Shown: positions 11,154 through 14,836 of the stretch, piece by piece
Numbering within the stretch: position 1 is the first letter of the stretch
How the letters are laid out: each line of letters opens with the position of its first letter
Assembly: GCA_028819845.1 (NCBI GenBank)
Contig: JAPPKS010000017.1
Location: 346,686 to 410,685, forward strand
DNA: 64,000 nt
Direction of reading: 5' to 3'
Origin: Candidatus Poribacteria bacterium
Lineage (GTDB): Bacteria; Poribacteria; WGA-4E; PCPOR2b
Program-made: the position numbers and the translations under genes
Notes under the pieces: generated by a model
Told to the model about the DNA's origin: nothing
Databases searched by the model: none
Seen by the model: the letters and a program-made list of their open reading frames with translations, nothing else

Positions 11154-12146
11154 TTACTCTTCAATCCAACTCATCATACTGCGCAGGTCTTTTCCAACCT
11201 TTTCAATAGGCAACTCTGATTCACTGCGGCGCAAGGCTTGCAGGACAGGCTGATTGGCTTGGTTTTCCAGCACCCACTCCCGCGCGAATTTCCCGCTCTG
11301 CACCTCTTTGAGAAGCTCTCGCATACGCTCCCGTACGTTGTCATCAACAACGCGAGGCCCGCGGGTGAGGTCGCCGAACTCCGCGGTATTGCTGACAACG
11401 CGGCGCATCTTATTTAGCCCGCCAGTGTAGATAAGATCAACAATGAGTTTCAACTCGTGCAGGCATTCAAAGTACGCCATTTCCGGTTGATACCCCGCTT
11501 CGACCAGCGTATCGAATGCGGCTTTGATGAGTGCCGATGTACCGCCGCAAAGCACCGCCTGCTCGCCGAATAAATCTGTTTCTGTTTCTTCACGAAAAGT
11601 GGTTTCAATCACACCCGCCCGCGTGCCGCCAATTCCTTTTGCATAGGCCAGTGCAACATCTCTCGCATGGCCGGTGATATCTTGATGGATAGCGATCAGA
11701 CATGGTGTCCCGCCGCCCGCCACAAATTCATCCCTTACTAGGTCGCCCGGTGCTTTCGGCGCAATCATCGTCACATCAATATTTTCCAAGGGAAGAATCT
11801 GTCCAAAGTGGATGCTGAAGCCGTGCGAAACCATCAGCATATTCCCGGCTTGCATGTTCGGCTCGATTTCCGTTTTATACACCGTAGCGTGCAACTCATC
11901 CGGGATGAGAATCTGGACAATTTCGCTTGCGCTAGCAGCTTCTTCAACGCTGCTGACAGTCAGCCCATCCGCTTCCACTTGTTCGCACGACCGGCTGGTT
12001 GGGCGCAACCCCACCCGGACATTCGCACCACTGTCTTTTAGGTTCAACGCTTGTGCACGACCTTGAGCCCCATAGCCGATGATGGCAATCGTCTTCTCTT
12101 TGAGTAAATCAAAATTCGCATCCGTATCGTAATAAATTGTTGCCAT
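11154..12146 (-). CDS. ilvC: Ketol-acid reductoisomerase (class I)
   Basis: Second enzyme of valine, leucine and isoleucine synthesis: converts acetolactate or acetohydroxybutyrate to the dihydroxy acid with NADPH and Mg. The N-terminal Rossmann motif is [17 protein letters not shown] (~21-37). The cofactor-specificity loop GLRPTSRS carries Arg and Ser residues expected for [20 protein letters not shown] and the C-terminal knotted domain with [16 protein letters not shown] and metal-binding Glu residues are intact. The 330 residues are class I length. AAAGGAGC precedes the ATG. It is last in ilvB-ilvN-ilvC, 57 nt after ilvN, and so falls under the T-box upstream of ilvB. Confidence 0.97.
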
Positions 12147-12203: not shown

Positions 12204-12695
12204 TTACTTCGCTGCCCCGCGCATGATTGCGATTTTTCCCGTGCGGACCAATTCTTGAATACCATACGGACGCAGCATGTCAACCACAGCCTTCAGCTTA
12301 CCTTCGTCACCGGTGACCTCAATCGTCAATGTTGCGGGGCTAACATCAACCGCACGTGCGCGGAAAATCTCCATAATTTGAAGAATCTCTCCACGCCGAT
12401 TGGGTGTTGCATTCATCTTAATCAAGACTAGCTCCCGCTCAACGTGGTTTTCAGCGGTAAGATCGGTCACCTTTATTACGTCAATTAGCTTATTTAGATG
12501 TTTGTATATCTGTTCGACAATTTGCGCATCGCCATGTGTAACGATTGTCATGTGGGAAACGCCTGGATCGTCCGTCTCGGCGACATTTAGGCTATCAATG
12601 TTGTATCCTCGACCACTAAATAACCCCGCAATCCTCGCGAGTACGCCGAATCGATTTTCAACGAGAACAGAAAAGATGTGTCTCTCCTCAACCAT
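12204..12695 (-). CDS. ilvN: Acetolactate synthase small (regulatory) subunit
   Basis: Regulatory subunit that binds IlvB and normally confers valine feedback inhibition. The N-terminal ACT domain reads HIFSVLVENRFGVLARIAGLFSGRGYNIDSLNV with the effector-binding turn, followed by a second half (VHVERELVLIKM region to ...LRPYGIQELVRTGKIAIMRG) of usual length for a 163-residue IlvH/IlvN. Its ATG overlaps the ilvB stop as TAATG, indicating translational coupling and a 1:1 supply of subunits. Confidence 0.95.
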   Translation of the reverse strand: MVEERHIFSVLVENRFGVLARIAGLFSGRGYNIDSLNVAETDDPGVSHMTIVTHGDAQIVEQIYKHLNKLIDVIKVTDLTAENHVERELVLIKMNATPNRRGEILQIMEIFRARAVDVSPATLTIEVTGDEGKLKAVVDMLRPYGIQELVRTGKIAIMRGAAK

Positions 12696-14374
12696 TATGC
12701 TAAACCTCGTATGACATCGCCGAGTCCCGCACCTGCGGGGACCATTGGGAACACGTTCTCATCTTCATCAACAATGAAGTCAATAACCACGGGACCATCA
12801 TCAATATGTTTCGACTTTTCCAACGCTGGTCGAACATCTTCAATCCGATCGACGCGGAGTCCTGTTGCGCCGAACGCTTGAGCAAGCAGCGCAAAGTCGG
12901 GGTTATCGTGGTAATCGACCGCCGCATACCGTTTTTCGTGGAAGAGTTCTTGCCACTGCCGCACCATACCGAGATACATATTGTTAATGATGAAAATCTT
13001 GAGCGGAAGTTTCAGCGTGACAGCAGGAACAAGTTCTTGAATTGTCATGATGTAAGAACCGTCTCCATTAATGTTCACAATAGTTTTGTCCGGACATCCG
13101 AGTTGCGCGCCAATCGCCGCGGGCAAACTGAACCCCATAGTTCCGAGTCCGCCCGAGTTCAACCACTGCCGCGGCTGGGTAAATTTGAAATATTGCGCTG
13201 CCCACATCTGATGTTGTCCCACGTCCCCGACGACAACCGCATCGGGAAAGACATCATAGATTTGCTCAATCACAAACTGCGGCATAATCTTATCCCCTCT
13301 TTGTTGATACTCGAAGGGATATTTTTCCTTCCACTCATCAGTTTGGCGTATCCACGGCTCAATGTCCACGTGATGCACGTGCTGATTCATCTTCGCCAAT
13401 ACGCGTTTGGCATCACCCACTATGGGAACATCTATCGGAACATTCTTGCCGATACAGGAGGGATCGATATCAATTTGAATTTTCTTCGCCTTCTGAGCAA
13501 ATTTGCTTAGGTCGCCTGTGACCCGATCGTCGAACCGCGCCCCCACCGCAATAAGGAGGTCGGCGTCCGTAAACGCATAGTTTGCGCAGCAAGAGCCGTG
13601 CATGCCCGGCATCTCCATTGACAGCGGGTGAGTTTCGGGAAATGCACCTAGCCCCATGAGCGTTACCGTGATGGGAATACCGGTTTTGATTGCCAATTCG
13701 CGCAATTCTTCGCTAGCGTCGGAGAGAACAACACCGCCTCCAGCGTAAATTATGGGGCGCTCGGCGTTGTGGATCAGGTCAACGGCTTTGGCAATCTGCC
13801 GTGGGTGTCCATCGACGCTGGGTTTGTAGCCTCGAATATTGACCGACTCCGGATATCTGAATATGGACTCACTGATTTGAGCGTCCTTCGCGAAATCAAC
13901 GACAACAGGCCCCGGTCTCCCTGTGCTAGCAATGTGGAAGGCTTCCGCCACAATTTCTGCGACCTCGTCGCTTGATTTAATTAAGAAGCTGTGCTTACAG
14001 ACCGGACGTGTTACCCCAATGATATCACATTCTTGGAAGGCGTCATTGCCCATCAAATGGGTGAATACCTGCCCTGTGATTGCCACCATTGGAATAGAAT
14101 CCATATAAGCCGTAGCAATGCCAGTGACAAGGTTTGTCGCACCGGGACCCGAAGTGGCAAGCACAACACCCACGATTCCCGTTGCGCGCGCATAACCGTC
14201 AGCGGCGTGCACTGCACCCTGTTCGTGCCGCATCGGGATGAGCTTGATACCTTGCGCATCGTAGAGCGCATCAAAGATTGGCATCGCTGCGCCCCCGTTA
14301 AGTCCAAAAATGTACTCGACGCCTTCTCGCCGAAGACTTTCGATAAGGAGTTGTGCACCTCGCATCTGTTCCAT
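12695..14374 (-). CDS. ilvB: Acetolactate synthase large (catalytic) subunit
   Basis: Thiamine-diphosphate and FAD enzyme that condenses pyruvate with pyruvate or 2-oxobutyrate, opening branched-chain amino acid synthesis. Domains in order: TPP-binding N-terminal domain with the activating Glu in MRHEQGAVHAADGYA; central FAD/DHS-like domain; C-terminal domain with GDGSYIMTIQEL...NN for TPP-Mg. I chose ATG at 14374 (MEQMRGAQLLIES), which has GCGAGG upstream. The open frame reaches 14614, but that extension is the translated T-box leader, not protein. The 559 residues are the family norm. The operon is ilvB-ilvN-ilvC; premature termination at the T-box terminator should control all three genes. 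Confidence 0.96.
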   Translation of the reverse strand: MEQMRGAQLLIESLRREGVEYIFGLNGGAAMPIFDALYDAQGIKLIPMRHEQGAVHAADGYARATGIVGVVLATSGPGATNLVTGIATAYMDSIPMVAITGQVFTHLMGNDAFQECDIIGVTRPVCKHSFLIKSSDEVAEIVAEAFHIASTGRPGPVVVDFAKDAQISESIFRYPESVNIRGYKPSVDGHPRQIAKAVDLIHNAERPIIYAGGGVVLSDASEELRELAIKTGIPITVTLMGLGAFPETHPLSMEMPGMHGSCCANYAFTDADLLIAVGARFDDRVTGDLSKFAQKAKKIQIDIDPSCIGKNVPIDVPIVGDAKRVLAKMNQHVHHVDIEPWIRQTDEWKEKYPFEYQQRGDKIMPQFVIEQIYDVFPDAVVVGDVGQHQMWAAQYFKFTQPRQWLNSGGLGTMGFSLPAAIGAQLGCPDKTIVNINGDGSYIMTIQELVPAVTLKLPLKIFIINNMYLGMVRQWQELFHEKRYAAVDYHDNPDFALLAQAFGATGLRVDRIEDVRPALEKSKHIDDGPVVIDFIVDEDENVFPMVPAGAGLGDVIRGLA

Positions 14375-14501: not shown

Positions 14502-14545
14502 TCAAAAAAGCCCTTCTCGTTCCAACTTGGAGACGAAAAGGGCTT
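14502..14545 (-). terminator. Regulated intrinsic terminator of the ilv T-box
   Basis: Minus-strand stem AAGCCCTTTTCGT / ACGAGAAGGGCTT followed by a run of T. It lies 15 nt after the T-box sequence and would compete with the antiterminator. Confidence 0.85.
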
Positions 14546-14800
14546 CTTTCGAAGATCTTGCCGCGGTACCACTCCAATTCCCTCTCTGTTAAGCTTCGCT
14601 TTCAAAAAGGGCACTCATTGGGATGCGGTGACGGGCATCAACCGTCTAACCCTACGTTGTATTTTCGGGCTAGCAACTCCAGGGCGACGTTCAGCTGCAG
14701 CGCTTGAGGAAATCTCTCAGCCGGTGGATTTCCCGCTCTGTCAAGGCTTGGCAGCCTACTCCTCCCCTTCATCGTATTTGCCGTATGAAATTCAAGTATT
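14502..14800 (-). ncRNA. T-box riboswitch leader of the ilvBNC operon
   Basis: The minus-strand leader carries the hallmark T-box sequence GGAGTGGTACCGCGG (14575-14561), which pairs with the uncharged tRNA acceptor end. An intrinsic terminator follows. Stem I begins near 14775 with GATGAAGGGGAGGAGTAG, matching the GA/AGTA motif. A distal-loop-like GGCTGAGAGATTT is at about 14723-14711. The specifier region reads CTGAACGTCGCCCTGGAG; the triplet before GCCCTGGAG is GTC (14688-14686), so valine is the likely cognate amino acid, consistent with ilv control. The folding is my reading of conserved motifs. Specifier identity is less sure than the T-box call. Confidence 0.9.
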
Positions 14801-14807
14801 TCCATTA

Positions 14808-14836
14808 AGTATACATAAGGCGATGAGAGATGTCAA
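14808..14836 (-). promoter_or_regulatory. Promoter of the ilvBNC operon
   Basis: Minus strand TTGACA (14836-14831), 17 nt, TATACT (14813-14808). The predicted start near 14800 gives a leader of about 425 nt containing the whole T-box. Confidence 0.8.

Follow-up and report, generated by a model that had tools for sequence, protein, structure and literature searches.

The window analysed here, a stretch of 64,000 nucleotides from a Candidatus Poribacteria genome, carries a complete transcriptional T-box leader on its minus strand (14836–14504). Judging from its sequence, this leader is very probably a canonical transcriptional T-box riboswitch that senses tRNA-Val, controls ilvBNC, which serve valine and isoleucine synthesis, and has been inherited together with a second T-box upstream of pheS. 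It is placed among the canonical cases because every feature tested agrees with a transcriptional T-box. Sequence analysis establishes the parts of the leader, the agreement between specifier and gene, the covariation of the antiterminator and the presence of T-boxes throughout the phylum. The ilv leader itself belongs to a known family and is normal for it; what appears to be new is the phylum-wide occurrence of T-boxes in Poribacteria, together with variants specific to the phylum.

The leader and its operon

The initial annotation, made from the letters alone, had proposed a T-box before ilvBNC, and a search of the minus strand with the Rfam model RF00230 bears this out. The match spans the full length of the model (14526–14781, minus strand) and scores 103.2 bits against a gathering score of 93, with an E-value of 1.1e-21 in the scan of the whole 64-kb window and of 8.9e-24 in a local rescan; in the local scan no Rfam family other than RF00230 matched at the leader. 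The fold of the leader has a z-score of -4.9, and none of 200 shuffles was equally stable. All of the parts named in that annotation are present, namely the promoter, a GA-rich Stem I, the GTC before GCCCTGGAG, the GGAGTGGTACCGCGG element and a terminator with T6. The sigma-70-type promoter, TTGACA-17-TATACT (14808–14836, minus strand), has 11 of 12 consensus letters and a 17-nt spacer, but on its own it is weak evidence because shuffles of the region yield 0.8 promoter-like sites on average. TTGACA-17-TATAMT is found upstream of most ilv leaders in relatives and is mostly absent at the pheS leaders, which fits transcription of pheS from the infC-rpmI-rplT side. In the ilv leaders compared, Stem I retains AGAG, GGCTG and the greater part of the specifier loop, and Stem II (14646–14673, minus strand; CTAGCCC...GGGTTAG, S-turn-like loop) is supported by both the Rfam alignment and the fold. 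The transcriptional long-Stem-I class of RF00230 has the same GA motif, specifier, Stem II, IIA/B and Stem III, the same antiterminator with a UGGNACC bulge, a terminator and an amino-acid gene downstream; there is no essential difference between this class and the leader, whose host phylum is Poribacteria.

The identities and order of the downstream genes, all on the minus strand, come from NCBIfam matches: ilvB, the large subunit of acetolactate synthase (12695–14374, ATG at 14374; TIGR00118, 787 bits), ilvN, its small subunit (12204–12695; TIGR00119, 211 bits), and ilvC, ketol-acid reductoisomerase (11154–12146; TIGR00465, 450 bits). The suspicion of a non-Firmicute, Poribacteria-like host was well founded, the nearest named IlvB being 80% identical and belonging to a Candidatus Poribacteria genome whose own leader scores 99.7 bits. 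In G060, a genome of another class of the phylum, the Val leader lies upstream of ilvD-ilvB-ilvN-ilvC, and ilvD comes first in the operon in G062 too, so the gene order of the window probably reflects the loss of ilvD from the head of the operon.

Specifier codon and cognate tRNA

The Rfam alignment gives GAAC-GTC-GCC-CTGGAG for the 3' side of the specifier loop, which places a GTC (Val) specifier at 14686–14688 (minus strand), in the register that gives TTC before pheS and conserved in relatives. The valine specifier, regarded as probable in the initial annotation, is well supported by the tRNAs of the same genome (located via RF00005 loci), since GTC matches the GAC anticodon of its tRNA-Val(GAC) and ilvBNC lies downstream. 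This tRNA has the discriminator A73, as does tRNA-Phe(GAA), and the UGGU of the T-box bulge UGGUACC (14565–14571, minus strand) is complementary to the ACCA end that A73 produces. The specifiers of 102 leaders from 59 Poribacteria genomes were parsed by script. GTC occurs in 52 of them, with ilvB or ilvD-ilvB downstream wherever the contig is long enough (two of the 52 lie too near a contig end for the gene to be seen), and TTC in 48, every one before pheS; one ilv leader has ATC (Ile), and one, also an ilv leader, escaped the parser and reads GTC by eye.

Many ilv T-boxes sense isoleucine or leucine tRNA. A reading of GTC in the wrong register, with tRNA-Ile or tRNA-Leu as the true ligand, could draw on the ATC found at the specifier place in G014 and on a Paenibacillus ilvB leader (L054) that is readable as CTC, yet it is extremely unlikely, as this register yields TTC throughout the pheS leaders and GTC in 52 of the ilv leaders, and no Ile or Leu codon stands at the specifier position of this leader. 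The pheS leaders (GAAT-TTC-ATC-TTGGAG in the genome studied, specifying phenylalanine) serve as an independent control for the GTC reading, and tRNA-Val is retained as the ligand. Firmicute ilv T-boxes, such as those of Paenibacillus ilvB (L054 and others), are alike in target gene and switch parts, but the L054 leader reads CTC (Leu), whereas the Poribacteria leader reads GTC (Val).

As a separate observation, the ATC of G014 lies at about position 299 of its locus (L170), while its sister G011 and the remaining genomes have GTC; this is likely to be a natural switch of the specifier from Val to Ile, the alternative being a sequence error in the assembly.

Antiterminator, terminator and the proposed switch

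The antiterminator (TTGGAG[TGGTACC]GCG ... CGT CTCCAA; 14527–14577, minus strand), also written TTGGAG[TGGTACC]GCG ... CGTCTCCAA, is defined by pairing and covariation in 21 ilv leaders. Across these leaders 96.8% of the cells are paired, falling to 40–55% when the partner strand is slid, and three pairs show double compensatory changes, a number reached by none of 500 shuffles; these changes support the predicted antiterminator. Sequence, fold and comparison together identify an intrinsic terminator (14504–14544, minus strand), which consists of a 12-bp lower stem, AGCCCTTTTCGT/ACGAGAAGGGCT, and an upper stem followed by T6. Its pairing is likewise conserved (91.5% of cells, against 42–62% when slid), with covariation that does not clearly exceed the column-shuffle control. 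The 3' strand of the antiterminator is at the same time the 5' arm of the terminator, and the two forms exclude each other because the CGTCTCC strand (14535–14529) is common to both.

By analogy with the known T-box mechanism, the leader would bind tRNA and switch as follows. The GTC of Stem I would pair with the GAC anticodon of tRNA-Val, and if this tRNA is uncharged, its ACCA end would also pair with the UGGU bulge and stabilise the antiterminator (TTGGAG/CTCCAA and GCG/CGT), allowing RNA polymerase to read through into ilvBNC. With charged tRNA-Val, whose end would be unable to pair, CGTCTCC would instead be drawn into the AGCCCTTTTCGT...ACGAGAAGGGCT terminator, and transcription would halt upstream of ilvB.

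Actinobacteria have translational T-boxes (PMC7583486), and six relatives of one genus seemed at first to be without a nearby terminator, so that an action on translation, by hiding of the ribosome site rather than by termination of transcription, had to be weighed. It is exceedingly improbable here: the 12-bp stem and T6 end some 130 bases upstream of the ilvB start codon, a distance that puts the ribosome site out of the terminator's reach, the sequestered ribosome-binding site that replaces the terminator in the Actinobacteria type is not seen in the ilv leader, and the six relatives retain terminator arms and a T run around an inserted loop. Control of transcription termination remains the preferred reading of the leader.

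In the genus concerned, g2, the terminator loop of the ilv leaders (e.g., L153, L156 and L163) carries an insertion of tens of bases. A switch to translational control in this genus (G001, G004–G008) was considered and rejected, the alignment showing intact terminator arms and T run.

Distribution and history of T-boxes in Poribacteria

Surveys of T-boxes have recorded them in Firmicutes, Actinobacteria, Chloroflexi, Deinococcus/Thermus and a few delta-proteobacteria, and leave undecided whether they originated in Firmicutes and spread or are of greater age (PMC2494555; PMC3766115). No paper joining T-boxes and Poribacteria was found by a search outside which lay subscription papers, the main 2008–2009 surveys, the Rfam full alignments and the TBDB tables, and this silence of the literature is weak evidence of novelty. 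The same leader was sought in related genomes, as the initial annotation had advised: T-boxes are present in all 59 genomes of the first search of relatives and in 79 of 85 Poribacteria genomes, representing 17 of 22 genera. An RF00230 match is absent from six of the 85; five of these are under 90% complete and the sixth, G067, is about 91% complete, and the assemblies of the relatives are mostly fragmented. Both the Val and the Phe leader occur in G060, a genome of another class, so the ilv and pheS leaders are probably older than the diversification of the phylum.

The retention of T-boxes in Poribacteria is shown by this distribution to be vertical, and the T-box is here an ordinary device, long inherited. 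The initial annotation had suggested transfer or ancient retention: retention within the phylum stands, and the data speak neither for nor against transfer into the phylum's ancestor. The rarity implied by its description of a distant occurrence was overstated, with T-boxes near-universal in Poribacteria and present in 17 of about 155 genomes sampled outside the phylum, several of these being Leu (CTC) leaders before leuA. The T-boxes of Geobacter/Pelobacter leuA, Dehalococcoides and Deinococcus are also non-Firmicute and lie on amino-acid or tRNA-synthetase genes (PMC2494555); those of Poribacteria differ from them in being near-universal in the phylum and in lying on ilv and pheS.

A quick IlvB tree broadly tracks the Poribacteria families and places Poribacteria on the side of Bacillota, Actinomycetota and Atribacterota, outside Bacillota. 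Together with the concentration of T-boxes in Firmicutes (PMC2494555), a place on the side of Bacillota might favour a recent acquisition of the leader from Firmicutes by this lineage, alone or with the ilv operon. Such an acquisition is nonetheless very unlikely, given that the 79 genomes with T-boxes belong to several families and a second class and have the same gene partners and specifiers, and that Poribacteria IlvB is not nested within Bacillota. Vertical inheritance within the phylum is therefore preferred. As for its ancestor, the T-boxes may have come by ancient transfer, which is possible, or from an older common ancestor, two histories between which the tree cannot decide because its sampling was chosen by similarity.

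Nearly every Poribacteria genome having one or both T-boxes, with matching partners and specifiers, the phylum is a useful test case for T-box origin; if the vertical inheritance of a phylum-wide case is true, it bears on the choice between a Firmicutes origin with spread and older T-boxes. The leaders also predict how these poorly culturable bacteria regulate their amino-acid genes. Two natural variants are of interest, the single change of specifier from Val to Ile (G014) and the shortening of the middle region in pheS leaders of one family.

Two T-box-like motifs, neither of them listed at the Rfam gathering score, were observed upstream of ilv genes in other assemblies, one in an assembly labelled Deltaproteobacteria (L035:1-300), with GTC (Val) and an ilvE-like aminotransferase gene downstream, and one in an assembly labelled Atribacteria (L078, about 2300–2530).

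The pheS leader

Beyond the ilv leader, the genome studied contains exactly one T-box, which scores 102.8 bits, has a Phe (TTC) specifier and lies in the gap between rplT and pheS (L002:1499-1790, corresponding to C10:177999-178265 of the same genome, plus strand), identified by RF00230 and partnered with pheS across the phylum. In three genomes of family f4 (G011, G014 and G016) only the ilv T-box was found, and the pheS leader may have been lost or may be too diverged. In family f3, many of the leaders before pheS (e.g., L178, L190 and L226) have only about 62–92 bases between specifier and T-box, against about 120 elsewhere, and appear to have lost Stem II and IIA/B, elements that are likewise missing in glyQS-type T-boxes.
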